Origin: Pseudomonadota bacterium
GTDB taxonomy: Bacteria > Desulfobacterota > Desulfovibrionia > Desulfovibrionales > Desulfovibrionaceae
NCBI GenBank assembly: GCA_018816865.1
Contig: JAHIUW010000034.1
Span: 1 to 64,000 of the forward strand
Length of the DNA stretch: 64,000 nucleotides
Reading direction: 5' to 3'
Position 1 is the stretch's first letter; each line of letters starts with the position of its first letter. The translations under genes were made by a program, and so were the position numbers. This document shows, in pieces, positions 36,961 to 44,795 of this stretch. The notes beneath the pieces were generated by a model, which saw only the letters and a program-made list of their open reading frames with translations, searched no databases and was not told the DNA's origin.

Positions 36961-38259
36961 ATGATCGAACGCTACACCCGACCCGAGATGAGCGAGCTCT
37001 GGACCCTGGAAAACAAGTTCCGGGTCTGGCTGGAAGTGGAAATAGCCATCTGCGAGGCCTGGAACCGCCTGGGCGTGATTCCGGACGAGGACCTGAAGAC
37101 CATCCGCGAGAAAGCGGATTTCGATCTTGAGCGCATCCTCGAGATCGAAGAGCAGACCAAGCACGACGTCATCGCCTTTTTGACGGCCGTGGAAGAGAAG
37201 GTCGGCCCGTCCTCGCGCTTCATCCATCTGGGCTGTACCTCCTCGGACATCGGCGACACCGCCAACGGTGTGCTCCTGTCCCGGGCCAGCGCGATCCTGG
37301 CGCGCGACATCGAGACCGTGCTGGGAACGCTCAAGGACATGGCCCACGAGCACAAGGGCCTGCTGTGCATGGGCCGGACCCACGGCATCCATGCCGAACC
37401 CACCAGCTACGGCCTAAAGCTGGCCGGGTACTATGCCGAATTCAAGCGCCATCAGGAGCGCTTCCTGCGCGCCGCAGACGGCGTGCGTGTGGGCAAGATT
37501 TCCGGGGCCGTGGGCACCTACGCCCATCTGAACCCCGAGGTGGAGCGCATCAGTTGCGAGATCCTGGGCCTGGCAGTGGACCCCATCTCCACCCAGATCA
37601 TCCAGCGTGACCGCCACGCCGCGTACTTCACCACCCTGGCCGGTCTGGCCGGAGGCGTTGAGCGGCTGTGCGTGGAGCTTCGCCACCTGCAGCGCACCGA
37701 GGTACGCGAGGTGGAAGAGGGCTTCTCCCAAGGCCAGAAGGGTTCCAGCGCCATGCCGCACAAGAAGAACCCCATCTCCGCCGAGAACCTGACCGGCTTG
37801 TCCCGACTGGTGCGCACCAACTCCCTGGCCGCCATGGAGAACCAGGCCCTGTGGCATGAGCGCGACATCAGCCATTCCTCGGTGGAGCGCGTGATCATGC
37901 CCGATACCACGGGTCTGATGAATTACATCCTGAATCGCCTGTCCGGTCTGCTCAAGCGGATGCGCATCATCCCCGCCAATGTCGAGCGCAATCTGAAGGG
38001 ATCCTTCGGGTTGTTCTTCTCGCAGCGGGTGCTGATGGAGATGCTCGCCCAGACCGACCTGGAGCGTCAGAAGGTCTACGAGATGGTCCAGCGGGTGGCT
38101 CTGCGCTGCTGGGACGAGGGCTTGCAGTTCCCGGACGAGGCCCGCAAGGATCCCGAGATTTCTGCCGTGCTCAGTGCCGAGCAGCTGGATGAAATCTTCG
38201 ACTACGGCTATTACCTCGGTCAGGAAGATATGATTTTCAACAGGGTCTTTGGGGACTAG
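36961..38259 (+). CDS. purB: Adenylosuccinate lyase
   Basis: 432 residues. It belongs to the fumarase/aspartase superfamily; the signature [11 protein letters not shown] carries the catalytic loop, and [13 protein letters not shown] and [14 protein letters not shown] supply the other active-site segments. It catalyses two steps of purine synthesis: SAICAR to AICAR plus fumarate, and adenylosuccinate to AMP plus fumarate. It heads a tightly spaced run of + strand genes; pyrE begins one base after its stop. Confidence 0.96.
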
Positions 38260-38260
38260 A

Positions 38261-38824
38261 ATGCAGGAACTCAAAAAGAAACTGGCCAAGATACTGATCG
38301 AGAAGTCTTACAAGGAAGGGGATTTCACCCTGACCTCGGGCAAGAAGAGCGAGTACTACTTCGATTGCAAGCAGACCGCCCTGCATCCCGAGGGCTCCTA
38401 CCTCCTGGGCCGTCTTTTTTTGGAAATCGTCAGGGATTATGCTATAGTCGCCGGCGTGGGGGGCATGACCCTGGGTGCGGACCCGCTGGTTTCCGCCGTG
38501 ACCGTGGTTTCGTACATGGAAGGATACCCCCTGCCCGGGTTCATCGTGCGCAAGCAGTCCAAGGGCCATGGCACTGACCAGTACCTGGAAGGCCTGGCCA
38601 ATTTCGAGCCCGGCGACATGGTCGTGATGCTCGAGGACGTGGTCACCACCGGCGGCACCCTGATCAAGGCCTGCCAGCGCGTCAAGGACGCGGGCCTCGA
38701 GATCGCGGGAGTCATCAGTGTGCTCGACCGGGAGGAAGGCGGACGTGAGGCCCTGGCCGAGGCCGGATATACCTTGAAGTCCATTTTCATCAGGAGTGAA
38801 TTGCTCAATGCGGCAGCTGAGTAA
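38261..38824 (+). CDS. pyrE: Orotate phosphoribosyltransferase
   Basis: 187 residues. The N-terminus has GDFTLTSGKKSEYYFDCK, and the PRPP-binding loop is MLEDVVTTGGTLIKA. It converts orotate and PRPP to orotidine monophosphate. The ATG at 38261 lies one base after the purB stop; an in-frame TTG at 38249 overlapping purB is less likely. The 3' end overlaps the following lipoprotein gene by 17 nt, so a purine gene, a pyrimidine gene and envelope genes appear to share one transcript. Confidence 0.95.
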   Translation: MQELKKKLAKILIEKSYKEGDFTLTSGKKSEYYFDCKQTALHPEGSYLLGRLFLEIVRDYAIVAGVGGMTLGADPLVSAVTVVSYMEGYPLPGFIVRKQSKGHGTDQYLEGLANFEPGDMVVMLEDVVTTGGTLIKACQRVKDAGLEIAGVISVLDREEGGREALAEAGYTLKSIFIRSELLNAAAE

Positions 38825-39416
38825 AATCCTTGCCTTGATTGTGGCGCTGCTGGTCATGACGGCCTGCCAGCTGACGGACCGTCCTGCCGGGGATATCCTC
38901 TGGCCGGACCTGAACGACCCGTATGTGCTGTCCACCAAGGAGTGGACGCGCAGTGCTGCGGTCTATGACGGGGTCAACCTCAGATTCGTGGCCACGGCCA
39001 CGGCCAAATCTCTGGACTGGCGCGAGGCCTTTGTTGCCCGCTACGCCGCGGCCTACTCCCAGACGCCCAGCGAGGCCGCCCAGGCCCTGGCCGACCAGAT
39101 GCGGGCCCATGAGGCCGCAAGTGAGGTCATCCTGGCCCTGGAAAGCCCGAGCATGGATGTGGGCCGGCTTTCCGTCAGGGACGAGCAGTGGAAGGTGTTT
39201 GCACTCCAGGGGGAAAACAAGCTATACCCCCAGGAAATTCGGCGCTTGAAGAAAAGTTCCTGGCCCGAGACCAAGCTGGGGACGTTCTTTCCGTATTTCA
39301 ATCCTTGGCAGAAGTTTTACTGTGTGAGTTTTCAGCGCGTGGCCCAAGGCCCCTTGACAGTAGTAGTTTCCGGGCCCGCAGGCCGGGTGGAGCTGGGATG
39401 GGAAGAGTTCAAGTAG
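38808..39416 (+). CDS. Lipoprotein of unknown function, first envelope gene of the cell-shape-like operon
   Basis: 202 residues. Signal with lipobox (VMTAC, Cys in the low twenties). The mature protein has no recognised family: a helical middle section rich in Ala, Gln and Glu (AAAYSQTPSEAAQALADQM) and a C-terminal beta-like part (FYCVSFQRVAQGPLTVVVSGPAGRVELGW). The start at 38808 has AGGAG upstream and lies inside the end of pyrE. It is 7 nt before the YkuD/NTF2 gene, implying co-expression and possibly a shared periplasmic function. An outer-membrane-anchored partner of the peptidoglycan enzymes is conceivable. Confidence 0.75.
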   Translation: MRQLSKILALIVALLVMTACQLTDRPAGDILWPDLNDPYVLSTKEWTRSAAVYDGVNLRFVATATAKSLDWREAFVARYAAAYSQTPSEAAQALADQMRAHEAASEVILALESPSMDVGRLSVRDEQWKVFALQGENKLYPQEIRRLKKSSWPETKLGTFFPYFNPWQKFYCVSFQRVAQGPLTVVVSGPAGRVELGWEEFK

Positions 39417-39423
39417 GGGTGGC

Positions 39424-40698
39424 GTGAGAATCGTTCGACTATTCGCCGTCTTGGCCCTGATGGTCATGTGTGCGGCTCAGGCGCTGGCCGCCTCGGGTTG
39501 GGAGGCACGTTTTGCAGGGCATCCGCTCTTGCCGCAGAAGTTTATTGCGGTGGACAAGGATGCCCAGACCTTTTTCATTTACGACCACAAAAGTCCGCTG
39601 CGGGTCGTTGGCAGCTTTCCCTGCGCCACGGGCCAACGTCCTGGGGACAAGCTGCATGAAGGCGATCTGAAGACCCCCGAGGGCGTGTACTTCATCCAGG
39701 GCCGCCTGCACCGCAAGCTGGACTGGACGCTCTACGGAGACCTGGCCTACCCCCTGAATTTCCCCAATCCCGTAGACAGGATCAAGGGCAAGACCGGCTA
39801 CGGCATCTGGGTCCATGGCCGGGGCAAGAAGCTCACCCCCAGGGACACCCAGGGCTGCGTGGCCCTGAACACCCCTGACCTGCGCGGCTTGGCCAAGGAT
39901 TTGACTCCGGGGCTGCCCCTGGTGATCAGCAAGCATTTCGGTGTCTCCCCCGACCAGCCTGCCGACGGGGGGGCCGAACTGGATGAGGCCGTGCAGCGCG
40001 TCAAGTCCTGGGCCGACGCCTGGCAGCGCCGTTCGGATGAGTTCTTCGAGTTCTATGATGCCCCCAAGTACGACCAGGCCCATGAGGGCAGCTACAAGGG
40101 CTTCATGGAGCGCAAGAAGCGGCTGTTCCAGGACAACCGCTGGATCCGCGTCCTGACCTCCGATGTGCGCGTCGTGCCCGGCCCCGACTACCTGGTCACC
40201 TATTTCAGACAGTATTACCGGACTGCCAGCATGGCCAGCGAGGGCATCAAGCGCCTCTATTGGCAGCGCTCGGCGGATGGCAAGCTGCGTATCGTGGGCC
40301 GCGAATGGGTCCAGACCCCGCGCACCCTGGACGACGTCTACCTGCAGGCCATGTCGGCAGAGGCGGGCGAGGTCATCGAGGCCTGGCGCAAGGCCTGGGA
40401 AAACGCCGAGCTGGATGCCTATCTGAGCTATTACGCCTACGGGGCCGAACAGGGCGATCGCCTGGGCGTGACCTCCATCAAGGAGCACAAGATTGCACTC
40501 TGGGCGGGTGCCAAACCCGAAAAGGTTGCCTTCGGGCAGGACAAACGATACTCCCTGATTCCAGAGGGGATTAGCGTGACCTTTGATCAGCAGTACTGTG
40601 CGGACAAGGGTTATTCGGACCAGGGCATCAAGCAGTTGGTCCTGATGCCCACCGACACAGGTTGGAAGATCATTCGCGAAGAGTGGAGGGCCATGTAG
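39424..40698 (+). CDS. YkuD-domain peptidoglycan L,D-carboxypeptidase/transpeptidase with NTF2-like C-terminus (Csd6/Pgp2-like)
   Basis: 424 residues with a GTG start and a signal peptide (cleavage expected near AQALA). The YkuD domain spans about residues 35-170 with the catalytic motif H131-G...T-Q-G-C145-V (HGRGKKLTPRDTQGCVAL). The second half contains NTF2-like repeats with the pattern AWRKAWENAELDAYLSYY. This domain order is that of Helicobacter Csd6 and Campylobacter Pgp2, L,D-carboxypeptidases that trim tetrapeptides to tripeptides and are needed for helical shape. General L,D-transpeptidases usually lack the NTF2 part. A Csd4-like gene two positions downstream supports the assignment. 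Confidence 0.82.
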   Translation: MRIVRLFAVLALMVMCAAQALAASGWEARFAGHPLLPQKFIAVDKDAQTFFIYDHKSPLRVVGSFPCATGQRPGDKLHEGDLKTPEGVYFIQGRLHRKLDWTLYGDLAYPLNFPNPVDRIKGKTGYGIWVHGRGKKLTPRDTQGCVALNTPDLRGLAKDLTPGLPLVISKHFGVSPDQPADGGAELDEAVQRVKSWADAWQRRSDEFFEFYDAPKYDQAHEGSYKGFMERKKRLFQDNRWIRVLTSDVRVVPGPDYLVTYFRQYYRTASMASEGIKRLYWQRSADGKLRIVGREWVQTPRTLDDVYLQAMSAEAGEVIEAWRKAWENAELDAYLSYYAYGAEQGDRLGVTSIKEHKIALWAGAKPEKVAFGQDKRYSLIPEGISVTFDQQYCADKGYSDQGIKQLVLMPTDTGWKIIREEWRAM

Positions 40699-41415
40699 AT
40701 GTCCAAGGCCAAGTACAACGTGCTGATGATGCGGGACAACAGCCCGGTCAAGCGATTCCGCATGAGTCCGGCGTGGTTGAAGCTGGCCCTGTATGTGATC
40801 ATTCTGCTTGTGGCCGTGGCCTGCCTGGGCGGGTATTTCGGGATGTCCTACTGGCGGCAGAGCGGGGGCCTGGCCGAGGAACTGGCCAATACCCAGCGTG
40901 AACTGCGCGAGGCCCGCATCGAGCTTGAGCGTCTCCAGAATATCGACAAGATCCTGAAGTCCAATGACCCCGAGGAATTGCAGGCCCTGTTCGGAAACGT
41001 CATTGCCGATCCGGGCGCAGCGAAGCCAATGGCCAAGCCCGTGCCCAAGGTCAATCTGACCTCGGTTTTCAAGCGTGTGGACCTGCAACAGGTCAAGGTG
41101 GACAACCTGCAGATCAAGCCCTCGGGTGCGAACTACAGGCTGACATTCAACCTGAACAACCTCCAGACCGAGGAGACCATCTCCGGCCGGGCCGACATGG
41201 AACTCGTGTCCAACGAGGGCCAGGACTGGCCTCTGGCCCTGAACCTCAACGACATGGTCTTTCAGATCCAGCGGTTCAAGCAGATCAGCACCACCTTCAA
41301 CCTGCCCTCGAAGGTGATCCTCTCGGATGTGTTCGGCCTGCGCCTCATCATCAAGGATCCTTCAGGCAAGGTCATCTTCAGTGAAACCTACCCGCTGTCA
41401 TACGTTATGTCTTAG
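40699..41415 (+). CDS. Bitopic membrane protein with coiled coil, between the Csd6- and Csd4-like genes
   Basis: 238 residues. A short basic cytoplasmic N-terminus (about 25 residues) is followed by one transmembrane helix (LKLALYVIILLVAVACLGGYFGM). A coiled coil comes next (about 58-80, ELANTQRELREARIELERLQ), then a linker and a beta-rich periplasmic domain of about 120 residues (VDLQQVKVDNLQIKPSGANYRLTFNLNNLQ). No known family is recognised. ATG starts directly after the stop of the preceding gene, and its end overlaps the Csd4-like gene. The layout would suit a scaffold placing the two enzymes in the membrane, as proposed for Csd5/Csd7-type proteins; this is inference from position and topology only. 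Confidence 0.75.
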   Translation: MSKAKYNVLMMRDNSPVKRFRMSPAWLKLALYVIILLVAVACLGGYFGMSYWRQSGGLAEELANTQRELREARIELERLQNIDKILKSNDPEELQALFGNVIADPGAAKPMAKPVPKVNLTSVFKRVDLQQVKVDNLQIKPSGANYRLTFNLNNLQTEETISGRADMELVSNEGQDWPLALNLNDMVFQIQRFKQISTTFNLPSKVILSDVFGLRLIIKDPSGKVIFSETYPLSYVMS

Positions 41416-43141
41416 CCTGCTGCTGGTCATGGCCCTGGCCGGCGCGCAAGCCTTTGCCGGGGATTTGTCCCGGCAGCATACGTTTTTTAGCGGCACCCAG
41501 TATCCCCTCACCGTCCATTTCATCCAGGGCACGGAACCCGGCCCCACGGTCATGGTCCAGGGCGGCATCCAGGGCGACGAGGTCTCAGGCTATCTCACCG
41601 CGCAGATCCTGACCCACGCCGAGGTCAGCCGCGGCAATCTGATCGTCATCCCCCGGGCCAACGTGCCCACGGTCCTGGCCGCAAAGCGCCAGATCAACGT
41701 GGACTTGAACCGCCGTTTCGACCAGGACTACGACACCTTCTTTGAGGATCGCCTGGCGCGGGTCATCAGTTTTCTCTTGAAGCGCAGCGACGCCTTCGTG
41801 CACCTGCATGAGGGCAGCGGGTTCTACCACCCCACCTATGTGGACGACCTGCGCAACCCCCGCCGTTACGGCCAATCCATCATCATCGACACCCCGATCT
41901 TCGAGGGGCGCATCAATCTGGCCGAAGTGGCCACCTCGGTGCTGGGCAAGCTGAATCATTCCATCGTGCCCGCCTACCAGTTCAAGCTGTTCAACACCAA
42001 CACCTTCGCCAACAACACCACGCATCCCGAACAGCGCAAATCCCTGACTTTCCATGCCCTGTCCAGCGCGGGAATCCCGGCCCTGGCCATCGAGGTCAGC
42101 AAGAATATCCGCCAATTGGGCTGGAAGGTCCTGCAACAACTGCGGGCCACGGAACTGACCCTGGAGCAGTACGGGGTCGAATTGCGCCTGCCCGAGTTCA
42201 CGGAGCAGGAGATCGACCGTTACGCCCAGGCCTCCTCGCGTATGCACATCAATGGCCTGCCCGTTGTTCCGGGGCAGGACATGACCCTGGCCCTGGCATC
42301 CGGCGGCACCGTGGAGGTGACCCTGGACGGGCCGCAGGAATCGGTGTTCGATCCCGTTCCTGCGGTGTTCGCCTCGGACCGGCCCGACCTGAATCTCGTG
42401 TCCACGCCGCGCCTGGCCCTGTCGCGCTTCCAGCGCCTGGACGTCTGGGCCGACGGCACCAGGCTCTCGCGGGTCAACGTGGCCTGGCAGAACGCTTCTC
42501 AGGCCGCCCTGTCGGGCGCAACCCCCAGGCTGGGGCCGACGCCGCTGTTCGCCTGCTGGCTGAACGGCAAGCTGCGTTTCGTCCCCGCGGGCGGGGTGCT
42601 GGAGGCCGTGAAGGGTGACCAGCTGGTTCTCGAGGGTGTCTGGGGCACCCGCGGCGAGCGCGAAGAGGTGCTCAATTTCAAGGGCTATGTCAGCCAGCCC
42701 CGGCGCAATGACGGCCAGGACGCGGGCGAGGAAATCATCCTGGACCCCGGCGTGTTCATCGGGCGGTACATCGAATCCGCCGCCGACGGTTCCTCCTGGA
42801 GCTGCCGGGTGGTGCGCGAGACCCCGGGCGAGGCCCGGGCCCAATTCCAGGTGCGTTTCGTGCCGCGTACCGTGGACGCGCTGCGCCTGAGGAACGGGGA
42901 CGGCGAGTTGGTCATCGTGCCCTGGAACGAGGACGGGCGGTTTGCCCTGCCTGCGGGGGCCTACACCCTGGACGGGCTGTGGAGCAACGGTCCCCGCGAC
43001 AAGGTCCTGGCCACCAGCGAGAGCCGCCCCCTGCCCTGGGGCGAGGGCTTGAGCATTGCCCCGGGCAGCGAGTCCGTCATCACCCTGCGTCAGGCCACCA
43101 CGTTTCGGCCCATCAGCCGGATGACCCTGGCGGCAGAGTAG
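41381..43141 (+). CDS. M99/M14-type peptidoglycan D,L-carboxypeptidase (Csd4/Pgp1-like)
   Basis: 586 residues from a GTG at 41381, giving a signal peptide (LCLSLLLVMALAGAQAFA) and a 35-nt overlap with the previous gene. The zinc site reads GGIQGDE, that is Q64-x2-E67, where most M14 peptidases have His-x2-Glu. The third ligand is in FVHLHEGSGF (H141 or H143), and E238 in LAIEVSKN is a candidate general base. Gln as first ligand is the hallmark of Csd4/Pgp1, which cut the iGlu-mDAP bond of tripeptides and give helical cells their twist. The C-terminal 300 residues are beta-rich modules, as in those proteins. Confidence 0.85.
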   Translation: MKPTRCHTLCLSLLLVMALAGAQAFAGDLSRQHTFFSGTQYPLTVHFIQGTEPGPTVMVQGGIQGDEVSGYLTAQILTHAEVSRGNLIVIPRANVPTVLAAKRQINVDLNRRFDQDYDTFFEDRLARVISFLLKRSDAFVHLHEGSGFYHPTYVDDLRNPRRYGQSIIIDTPIFEGRINLAEVATSVLGKLNHSIVPAYQFKLFNTNTFANNTTHPEQRKSLTFHALSSAGIPALAIEVSKNIRQLGWKVLQQLRATELTLEQYGVELRLPEFTEQEIDRYAQASSRMHINGLPVVPGQDMTLALASGGTVEVTLDGPQESVFDPVPAVFASDRPDLNLVSTPRLALSRFQRLDVWADGTRLSRVNVAWQNASQAALSGATPRLGPTPLFACWLNGKLRFVPAGGVLEAVKGDQLVLEGVWGTRGEREEVLNFKGYVSQPRRNDGQDAGEEIILDPGVFIGRYIESAADGSSWSCRVVRETPGEARAQFQVRFVPRTVDALRLRNGDGELVIVPWNEDGRFALPAGAYTLDGLWSNGPRDKVLATSESRPLPWGEGLSIAPGSESVITLRQATTFRPISRMTLAAE

Positions 43142-43167: not shown

Positions 43168-43977
43168 ATGCCCCAGCCCCTGTTCGTGAATCTGCCCTTG
43201 GTGTCCATTGCCCGGGGCGAATCCTATTTCGAGCTCTTTGCCCGGCGTGGCATCCATCCGGAGTTGGGCATCGACGCCTTTGCCCTGGATGAATTGAGCC
43301 CGCGTTGGCACGGACGCACGGCCCGCCGTCTGCGCGAGGCCGGGCTGTGCTGCGCTGTGCATCTGCCGTTCATGGACCTGCGACCCGGCGCGTCCGACCC
43401 CGCCATCCTGGGCCTGACCCGCGAACGTCTGGCCCGGGCCATGGACCTGGCGAGCGAATACGCTGCGGCGCACATGGTGGGTCACGCCTGCTTTCTTCCG
43501 GGCATGGATGGCACCCGGGTTCAGGACTGGTTGGAGACCTCCGTCAGCACCTGGAACGGGCTGCTGCAATCCCGGCCCGCTGGGCCGCCGCTGTATCTGG
43601 AAAACACCTACGAGACGACTTGTCAGCCCTTATGTGATCTCCTCTCCCTGCTTCCTAGGCAGCGCGCCGGGGTCTGTCTGGACCTGGGGCATTGGCACAG
43701 CTTCGCCCGGGGCTGGGAACGACATGATTTGGGTGCCTGGGTCGCGGCCCTGGGTCCGCATCTGGGGCACCTGCACCTGCACGACAACGACGGCAGCGCG
43801 GACCAGCATCTGGGCCTGGGCCAGGGGGCCATCCCCTTTGCTGAACTGTTCGCGGCCCTGGCCCGGCACGGCCTGACACCGACCATGACCCTGGAGCCGC
43901 ACACCCTTGAGGATTATGAGCACTCCAGCCGCTTCATGGCCGTACACCCCGAATGGTTTTCCCGAGAGAAGGCATGA
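43168..43977 (+). CDS. Sugar phosphate isomerase/epimerase-like TIM barrel (AP endonuclease 2 family)
   Basis: 269 residues. The pattern fits the xylose isomerase-like TIM barrel: CAVHLPFMDLRPG, AAHMVGHACF, PLYLENTYETT, GVCLDLGHWHSFA, LGHLHLHDNDGSADQHLGLGQG and MTLEPH, which supply the His, Glu and Asp metal ligands. Substrate is unknown; the family includes sugar isomerases and endonuclease IV. Its stop overlaps the DapF-like gene start (ATGA), so the two are translationally coupled and might act in one pathway. It follows the Csd4-like gene by 26 nt. Confidence 0.85.
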   Translation: MPQPLFVNLPLVSIARGESYFELFARRGIHPELGIDAFALDELSPRWHGRTARRLREAGLCCAVHLPFMDLRPGASDPAILGLTRERLARAMDLASEYAAAHMVGHACFLPGMDGTRVQDWLETSVSTWNGLLQSRPAGPPLYLENTYETTCQPLCDLLSLLPRQRAGVCLDLGHWHSFARGWERHDLGAWVAALGPHLGHLHLHDNDGSADQHLGLGQGAIPFAELFAALARHGLTPTMTLEPHTLEDYEHSSRFMAVHPEWFSREKA

Positions 43978-44795
43978 GCGCGCAACCCCATCGCTTCTAC
44001 AAGCTGTCCCCGGGCGGCAACACCACGATCCTGATCATGGATGCCCAGGACCTGCCCGTGGCCGAGCATCCGGTCCTGGCCGCAAGGTTGATGGACACGC
44101 TGCATCTTGGGGCAGAACAAGTGGGCTTTGTGTCTCTGGAGGGGCCGTTGCCCCGGCTGGACATGATGGGCGGCGAATTCTGTGGCAATGCGGCGCGTTG
44201 TCTGGGGGCTGTGCTGGCCCTGGAGGGCCGCCTGGGCGACGAAGGGTTGATTTGTGTATCAGGGGTCGAGGCCAGCCTGGGCGTCCGTCTGAGACGCGAA
44301 AACGGGATGGTCTGCGCCGCGGTGCAGATGCCCGTGCGTGAGCAGGGTTCGTGCCTGACGGATCTGGCTTCGGGGGTAGCCCTGGCCGAACTGGACGGCA
44401 TTACGCACCTCCTGTTGGACGAGGACGAACACCCCTGCCCGTCGGACCCCATCCGTGCGTCCGCCCGACTGCGCGAACTGTACGGCCTCACACAACGCGA
44501 CGCCGTGGGCTGTATCTGGCACTCGGGCGATCCTTCCTCGCCCAGCATCCGGCCCGTGGTCTGGGTCCGCGGGACCGGCACCACGCACCTGGAGACCGGC
44601 TGCGGCTCGGGCACCATGGCCCTGACGCAGCTCCTGGCGAAGCAACAGGGTGGCCCCGTTACGGTCCGGGTCCAGCAACCCAGCGGCCAGCACATTGAGG
44701 CCTCGGTGCAGTATGACCCCCAAAGCGATAGATTTAGCGAGGGGTGGATTGACGGGCCGGTGCCGGTCATCGCCAAGGGGACGACCTATCTGTGA
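43974..44795 (+). CDS. DapF-like amino acid epimerase/racemase
   Basis: 273 residues. Two pseudo-symmetric halves of the PLP-independent DapF fold, with the two catalytic cysteines visible in MGGEFCGNAARCLG and LETGCGSGTMAL. Classic DapF has MCGNGxRC and CGTG, and a KMxGxGND N-terminus; here it reads KLSPGGNTTILI. The protein is therefore a divergent relative, comparable to racemases such as CntK, and need not act on diaminopimelate. Its place behind peptidoglycan genes makes a cell-wall amino acid a reasonable candidate. Start ATG 43974 has GAGAGAAGG upstream. Confidence 0.82.
   Translation: MSAQPHRFYKLSPGGNTTILIMDAQDLPVAEHPVLAARLMDTLHLGAEQVGFVSLEGPLPRLDMMGGEFCGNAARCLGAVLALEGRLGDEGLICVSGVEASLGVRLRRENGMVCAAVQMPVREQGSCLTDLASGVALAELDGITHLLLDEDEHPCPSDPIRASARLRELYGLTQRDAVGCIWHSGDPSSPSIRPVVWVRGTGTTHLETGCGSGTMALTQLLAKQQGGPVTVRVQQPSGQHIEASVQYDPQSDRFSEGWIDGPVPVIAKGTTYL

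Follow-up and report, generated by a model that had tools for sequence, protein, structure and literature searches.

Introduction

The literature assigns a role in cell shape to the carboxypeptidases Csd4, Csd6, Pgp1, Pgp2 and Bd1075. Bd1075 of Bdellovibrio bacteriovorus, the protein of Protein Data Bank (PDB) entry 7o21, makes the cells curved and is held on one side, and according to the authors of that report no mechanistic basis is known for the targeting of enzymes of this type to one side wall (PMC8938487). Bactofilins, on the other side of the membrane, also have described partners. LmdC, an M23 endopeptidase of Hyphomonas and Rhodospirillum, combines a short cytoplasmic hairpin that binds bactofilin with a transmembrane segment (TM) and a coiled coil (PMC10945521), and Csd5 and Csd7 of Helicobacter pylori are reported as non-enzymatic transmembrane partners of the bactofilin CcmA (PMC9507126).

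Here we describe an operon in a 64,000-nt stretch of contig JAHIUW010000034.1 (hereafter the window), from a bacterium of the family Desulfovibrionaceae (order Desulfovibrionales, phylum Desulfobacterota). Its four genes, all on the + strand, encode a lipoprotein, a Csd6/Pgp2/Bd1075-like LD-carboxypeptidase (ykuD), a bitopic membrane protein (bito) and a Csd4/Pgp1-like DL-carboxypeptidase (M99). We consider it probable that the operon is a cell-curvature module in which bito anchors the carboxypeptidases on bactofilin filaments, with the result that the wall is trimmed on one side and the cell bends.

Co-occurrence of bito and bactofilin in the order

We surveyed 120 genomes, drawn evenly from the order, at a match threshold of E 0.001. 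This analysis revealed matches to ykuD in 98 genomes, bactofilin in 91, bito in 76, M99 in 62 and the lipoprotein in 25. Within the window's family (60 genomes), bito and bactofilin agreed in all 60, with 53 genomes carrying both and 7 neither; ykuD agreed with bactofilin in 57 of the 60 and M99 in 55. Two genomes of the draw, G062 and G084, have kept ykuD (G084 also M99) and lack both bito and bactofilin. Across all 120 genomes, both genes were found in 75, neither in 31, bactofilin only in 13 and bito only in one (G069, 77% complete). Weak bactofilin matches in G009, G041 and G070 were counted as absent; the G070 match, although it exceeds the Pfam cut-off, sits in a frame of 579 aa.

In 8 of the 13 bactofilin-only genomes the bactofilin gene directly adjoins an M23 peptidase gene, as in LmdC-BacA operons. 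The five others gave no purB match, and the whole locus is therefore probably missing from those assemblies. All eight order genomes with an M23-adjoining bactofilin lacked a bito match, although two of them (G043 and G051) are only about half complete. After post hoc exclusions, bito and bactofilin agreed in 113 of 114 genomes; for this count G042, G043, G046, G063, G072 and G079 were dropped (no purB match) and M23-linked bactofilins were treated as another type, both choices having been made after the data were seen. Bactofilin regions that were not read were taken as not M23-linked, and the purB search covered 29 of the 120 genomes. A purB tree, built by a quick method from 97 genomes, requires 11 changes of the bito label. 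Among independent pairs on well-supported branches of this tree, bactofilin followed bito in 5 of 5 (4.6 of 5 with M23-linked bactofilins counted) and ykuD in a mean of 2.6 of 5; five pairs are too few to reach p 0.05.

Sixty bactofilin regions of the order were read, of which 41 contained rodA, 8 an M23 gene and 10 neither, and one showed no bactofilin. The bactofilin gene of the window genome lies outside the operon locus and adjoins a RodA gene (TIGR02210; region L162, G000:C11:26420-26707). In the bactofilin regions (L162, L287-L338), where rodA is the usual neighbour, the opposite flank often carries an ATP synthase b-subunit-like gene. Csd5, the bactofilin partner in H. pylori, is reported to bind ATP synthase (PMC9507126).

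Linkage of ykuD, bito and bactofilin across the phylum

Loci read across the order showed a common arrangement, purB-pyrE-(lipoprotein)-ykuD-bito-(M99)-(CbiR-like), with the variable members in parentheses. The ykuD gene lay immediately 5' of bito in 64 of the 76 bito-bearing loci, the window included (65 with locus L105, where a sorting effect conceals the pair), and the operon is thus not a chance assembly. Chance or artefact as the origin of the gene set was ruled out by the recurrence of this arrangement, both throughout the order and in further families. The order purB-pyrE-ykuD-bito-M99 was also found in two genomes of another family (L429, L433).

The bito profile was then run on 395 genomes of the phylum. 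Of the 52 genomes that matched, 37 lie outside the window's order and 27 of these were read, some with flanks of 1.5 kb only (those left unread were G134, G178, G183, G209, G269, G299, G322, G340, G395 and G468). A ykuD-bito pair was present in 14 of the 27 genomes (10 also with M99) and bito with bactofilin in the absence of ykuD in 3. The rest comprised one genome with bito adjoining pyrE at a contig end, eight with M23 peptidases that have a bito-like N-terminus, and one in which nothing was seen.

Bactofilin lay alongside in 13 of the 27 genomes, being over the Pfam cut-off in all nine cases submitted and recognized by our own profile in the other four. The arrangements were ykuD-bito-M99-bactofilin (G216, G244, G271), ykuD-bito-bactofilin (G438, G319, G181), pyrE-ykuD-bito-M99-M23-bactofilin (G168, L422), bito-bactofilin (G401, G185), M23-bactofilin-bito (G261) and M23-bactofilin (G455, G427, G497). 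By our estimate about 0.1 bactofilin neighbours would be expected by chance in the regions read, given 1-4 bactofilin matches per genome of about 3.5 Mb.

Structure, conservation and kinship of bito

An AlphaFold model of bito (20 sequences, predicted local distance difference test score (pLDDT) 86) contained two short strands at residues 6-10 and 18-22 and a helix at 24-87; a linker of poor prediction quality then leads to a beta sandwich at about 130-232. The TM and coiled coil within the helix were judged from sequence. Among 71 sequences from the order, residues 5-23, which span the predicted hairpin, had a mean entropy of 1.44 bits, and none of the 196 other 19-residue stretches was as low. 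R21 is invariant in this set, and R12 and D13 are nearly so. The best fold matches of the beta sandwich were immunoglobulin-like (Ig-like) and generic (Foldseek and VIA; best VIA Z 10.5 over 103 residues); VIA re-aligns only the list that Foldseek returns, so further fold relatives are possible. Assignment of bito to a known family or fold was rejected, with no Pfam match at E 1, no NCBIfam model near its cut-off and only generic Ig-like folds, and no PDB sequence matched below E 0.3. The preliminary description of this DNA had proposed the bitopic protein as a scaffold component not described before, and this idea is supported.

A close described likeness is to LmdC, whose gene is linked to bactofilin, as that of bito is in other families of the phylum, and whose cytoplasmic hairpin, TM and coiled coil have counterparts in bito, the hairpin being predicted there. 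Unlike LmdC, bito has no M23 domain by Pfam and carries the Ig-like domain instead, with catalysis placed in the neighbouring ykuD and M99 products. Because it has no M23 domain, we do not file bito as an LmdC, only as a protein that would work like the N-terminal half of LmdC.

Comparisons of bito with M23 proteins gave mixed results. In a profile comparison with the hairpin at the N-terminus of one M23 class in the order (L163 with nine relatives), the bito hairpin outscored all 200 column shuffles. This class and the bactofilin-linked M23 class match each other with hhalign probabilities of 85% with the TM and 51% for the hairpin only, a score obtained without shuffles. A bito profile that included the TM returned M23 proteins as 4 of its top 8 non-bito matches (46 M23 in 19,039 open reading frames), for which TM composition may be the cause. 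A single bito sequence matched the N-terminus of an M23 protein in the order genome G021 at 7.6e-5, with the M23 domain in the same frame. The M23 proteins that the bito profile picked up in 8 of the 27 non-order genomes reached 5e-9 at best, in one genome, and the hairpin comparison splits by M23 class.

Csd5 and Csd7 resemble the proposed bito as non-enzymatic transmembrane partners of a bactofilin. They differ from it in that Csd5 contains an SH3 domain and acts together with MurF, and in the parts of the source consulted neither is reported with Csd6 or Csd4 (PMC9507126); this comparison is by description only.

The YkuD and M99 enzymes

The ykuD product consists of a signal peptide, a YkuD domain (residues 39-168), a Csd6-type NTF2 domain (190-291) and a second NTF2-like stretch. 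Both Pfam assignments were over cut-off (YkuD PF03734, 2e-15, 58 bits; Cds6_C PF24125, 4e-27, 95 bits, in two stretches), and PDB sequences matched were Bd1075 (7o21, 3e-32), Csd6 (4xzz, 3e-26) and Pgp2 (6xj6, 7e-22). The catalytic His131 was kept in 72 of 74 aligned rows and Cys145 in 71 of 74. Alanine at Cys+2 (A147) was found in 67 of 74 rows; this is the Csd6/Pgp2 state, and arginine is not expected there (PMC8938487). The product thus shares with Bd1075, Csd6 and Pgp2 the catalytic His and Cys and the succession of a YkuD catalytic domain and a Csd6-type NTF2 domain, and with Csd6 and Pgp2 the alanine at Cys+2. It differs in carrying the second Csd6-type NTF2 stretch, and its gene directly precedes that of a bitopic protein; for bd1075 a monocistronic arrangement is described. 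By homology the enzyme would trim tetrapeptides to tripeptides.

Reading frames of YkuD relatives reach 1022 aa, with extra NTF2 copies; in several genera (L091, L093, L101-L105, L119-L136) frames of about 600 to 1020 aa carry further NTF2-like copies. The small genome G102 (L135; a 1.46-Mb contig, GC content 34% in the stretch) retains the NTF2 part of YkuD, bito and bactofilin, but neither M99 nor the catalytic YkuD domain was found in it.

The M99 product matched Peptidase_M99 (PF17033, 3e-31) and, among PDB sequences, Csd4 (4q6m, 1e-25). The best PDB match of its AlphaFold model (10 sequences, pLDDT 76) was again Csd4 (4wck, 7e-25). Two loops in the active-site region, 96-107 and 146-161, had pLDDT below 50. 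In Csd4, Gln46, Glu49 and His128 hold the metal, Glu222 is the base, and Arg86 and Arg94 lie at the substrate (PMC4220969). Mapped by hand through the 4q6m alignment, Csd4 Gln46, Glu49, Arg86, Asn93, Arg94, His128 and Glu222 correspond to Q64, E67, R103, N110, R111, H143 and E238 of the window protein. All seven were identical in the 48 rows that cover them, the other 2 of 50 rows being gapped there. The protein thus has the QxxE...H metal motif of Csd4/Pgp1, with Gln in place of His, and the Csd4 fold. It differs from the Csd4 chains (437-439 aa) in its length of 586 aa, its divergent C-terminal part and its position near a YkuD gene. As judged from its family and these residues, it would trim tripeptides to dipeptides. 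The family assignments of both enzymes and the Gln zinc ligand had already been put forward in the preliminary description, and each held.

Two M99 classes occur in the order. The long class, as in the window, was found in 33 genomes and a canonical class (E below 1e-75), located elsewhere, in 29; the two share no genome among the 62 that bear M99, and it looks as if one class has been displaced by the other. M99 lay directly 3' of bito in 28 of the 76 bito loci. Another 20 of the 76 bito-bearing genomes had no M99 match, which ruled M99 out as a fixed partner of bito, and 28 had a different, unlinked M99. Thus, of the four-gene set originally proposed, the ykuD-bito pair recurs, but M99 is not fixed and the lipoprotein is confined to a minority of genomes. 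In L092 (3230-4972) and L111 (3-1114) the M99 reading frame is split, and decay or assembly error is possible there.

Cell shape

The purB-pyrE genes of D. piger ATCC 29098 (L186) have no operon downstream and this genome showed no bactofilin. The same genome in the draw (G091, matched by coordinates) had no ykuD, bito or M99 match. Desulfovibrio piger is reported to be a non-motile rod (PMC5313605). A Desulfomicrobiaceae metagenome-assembled genome (MAG; L194) had no ykuD or bito 3' of pyrE, and its bactofilin match was no more than a weak one within a frame of 579 aa. According to PMC8069399, cells of Desulfomicrobium do not have the curved shape of Desulfovibrio. The ykuD-bito pair was present in Halodesulfovibrio (L184) and Humidesulfovibrio (L185, L188), the latter also with M99, and both genera are listed as vibrio (Table 1, PMC9174804).

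Among ten named genomes, 7 had a strong bactofilin match together with bito at purB-pyrE, 2 (D. piger and the Desulfomicrobiaceae MAG) had neither, and the region in one (L174) is cut off before bito. Five of the ten are also in the 120-genome draw. Shape was considered for a handful of named genomes; it agrees with a role in curvature, as a few cases and not as a test. The actin-like Mad28 of D. magneticus is reported to follow curvature and not to make it (PMC12713370).

Proposed mechanism and alternative explanations

In the mechanism that we propose, the Csd6-like enzyme would trim tetrapeptides of the wall to tripeptides in the periplasm, and the M99 enzyme would then trim tripeptides to dipeptides. 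The bito hairpin would bind the cytoplasmic bactofilin filament as the hairpin of LmdC does, the TM and coiled coil would span the membrane, and the Ig-like domain would hold or position the carboxypeptidases. With bactofilin enriched on one side of the cell, trimming would become one-sided, wall growth biased and the cell bent. The preliminary description had taken the operon for the vibrioid-shape machine of a Desulfovibrio-like cell. Linkage and co-loss with bactofilin, and absence from the rod-shaped D. piger, indirectly favour that view, but bactofilin itself was not part of it; lying outside the locus in the window and inside the operon in other families, this key partner was missed.

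Several results weigh against a bactofilin-tethered module. Bactofilin was found in 0 of 101 order regions read around the operon or M99. Enzymes also occur without it: G084 has both ykuD and M99, and G062 as well as 14 genomes of genus g27 have ykuD. No M99 match was found in 20 of the 76 bito-bearing genomes. The kinship of the hairpin to bactofilin-linked M23 proteins was also not supported by two comparisons, since 55 of 200 shuffles were as good against the bactofilin-linked M23 hairpins of the order (7 sequences), and a hairpin-only profile search gave its first M23 at E 8.2, with M23 not separated from noise. Bactofilin and Csd4/Csd6 seemed to act in separate pathways in both Helicobacter and Campylobacter, and double mutants of C. 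jejuni are reported to place Pgp2 in a pathway separate from bactofilin 1104 (PMC10151779). Given these counter-cases, the Desulfobacterota may show a variant arrangement, or in those species the link may have escaped notice.

Bito and bactofilin could serve the same curvature pathway without contact, bito being a periplasmic scaffold only and the two disappearing together when a rod gives up the pathway as a whole. The simultaneous absence of everything from D. piger and similar genomes and the non-significant similarity of the hairpin to the bactofilin-linked M23 proteins of the order fit this explanation. We nevertheless regard it as unlikely: G062 and G084 lack exactly bito and bactofilin and retain ykuD (G084 also M99), the most conserved part of bito is the cytoplasmic hairpin, which is hard to explain without a cytoplasmic partner, and in several other families bactofilin lies directly 3' of bito, or of M99 after bito. 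The partner of the hairpin might instead be the elongasome (RodA, MreB) or another cytoplasmic protein, with bactofilin as a fellow client, and the 41 of 60 bactofilin regions that adjoin rodA are in keeping with this. Outside the order, however, bactofilin adjoins bito itself (rodA was not searched for there), and we consider an elongasome contact very improbable. An operon for housekeeping peptidoglycan trimming, travelling with purB and pyrE and with no special part in curvature, would account for the breadth of ykuD in the order, including 14 genomes of genus g27 in family f4, a family that, by the equal coordinates of the L194 genome and G070, probably includes the non-curved Desulfomicrobium (PMC8069399). 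The standing of the relatives Csd4, Csd6, Pgp1, Pgp2 and Bd1075 as shape enzymes and the ykuD-bito-bactofilin linkage make such a role quite unlikely in our judgement.

We therefore return to the curvature module tethered to bactofilin. New in it are the adaptor, the ykuD partnership of that adaptor in more than one family of the phylum, and the tie between adaptor and bactofilin; the enzymes are new members of known families. In searches of open-access papers, no title or abstract start described coupling of Csd4/Csd6 or YkuD enzymes to bactofilin, or a mechanism of curvature in Desulfovibrio. The data suggest that bito couples wall-trimming enzymes to an internal filament, a link not shown for the model species in the literature examined. 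Bito is a concrete candidate for the question of one-sided targeting, as a membrane-crossing adaptor joining bactofilin to the class of enzyme that curves Bdellovibrio, and the operon offers a proposed mechanism of curvature for Desulfovibrio-like cells. We lean, by a small margin, towards a broader reading in which bito founds a family of non-catalytic bactofilin adaptors and its hairpin serves as a transferable bactofilin tag, present also in LmdC-type M23 enzymes, that by way of bito mounts L,D- and D,L-carboxypeptidases on bactofilin filaments. If this is true, the bactofilin and Csd4/Csd6 pathways would form a single curvature machine in Desulfobacterota.

Locus layout and neighbouring genes

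The operon genes and their neighbours are listed in Table 1. The four overlapping or abutting genes of the preliminary description were recovered at the positions that it gave. The pyrE and lipoprotein genes overlap by 17 nt, the lipoprotein and ykuD genes are 7 nt apart, and ykuD and bito abut with 0 nt between them. The overlap of bito and M99 is 35 nt if M99 starts at GTG 41381, which we took as the start because a signal-peptide-like stretch comes next.

Table 1. Features of the operon locus in the window
Feature	Coordinates	Strand	Evidence and remarks
purB, adenylosuccinate lyase	36961..38259	+	TIGR00928 505 bits, cut-off 326; upstream neighbour in 70/76 bito loci
pyrE, orotate phosphoribosyltransferase	38261..38824	+	TIGR00336 133 bits, cut-off 107; conserved upstream neighbour
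Lipoprotein gene	38808..39416	+	Lipobox Cys20; without Pfam family; 25/120 order genomes
ykuD, Csd6/Pgp2/Bd1075-like LD-carboxypeptidase	39424..40698	+	GTG start; PF03734, PF24125; 7o21, 4xzz, 6xj6
bito, bitopic protein, proposed bactofilin adaptor	40699..41415	+	AlphaFold model, Ig-like fold matches, conservation, linkage, co-occurrence
bito codons 5-23, predicted cytoplasmic hairpin, KYNVLMMRDNSPVKRFRMS	40711..40767	+	Most conserved 19-residue stretch; predicted strands 6-10, 18-22
M99, Csd4/Pgp1-like DL-carboxypeptidase with long beta-rich C-terminal part	41381..43141	+	PF17033; Csd4 4q6m, 4wck; active-site residues
CbiR-like TIM-barrel gene	43168..43977	+	PF01261 over cut-off; NF041277 65 bits, below cut-off 105

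The attachment to purB and pyrE, first noted as odd, turned out to be the rule in the order, with pyrE present in 65 of the 70 bito loci in which purB was seen. As a common arrangement, it was set aside as a clue to function.

The lipoprotein gene, matched in 25 of the 120 order genomes, is far from universal, and a scan of 17 members found no Pfam family common to more than one. In genus g20 (L078, L082, L084, L086-L088, L098, L100) the lipoprotein gene lies directly 5' of bito and the best ykuD match is found at another place in the genome, an arrangement that links the lipoprotein with bito and not with the enzyme.

A CbiR-like gene often follows the operon on its 3' side, with no sign of a role in shape. 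In the window (43168-44795) the gene that it overlaps matched histidine racemase and DapF models below their cut-offs.

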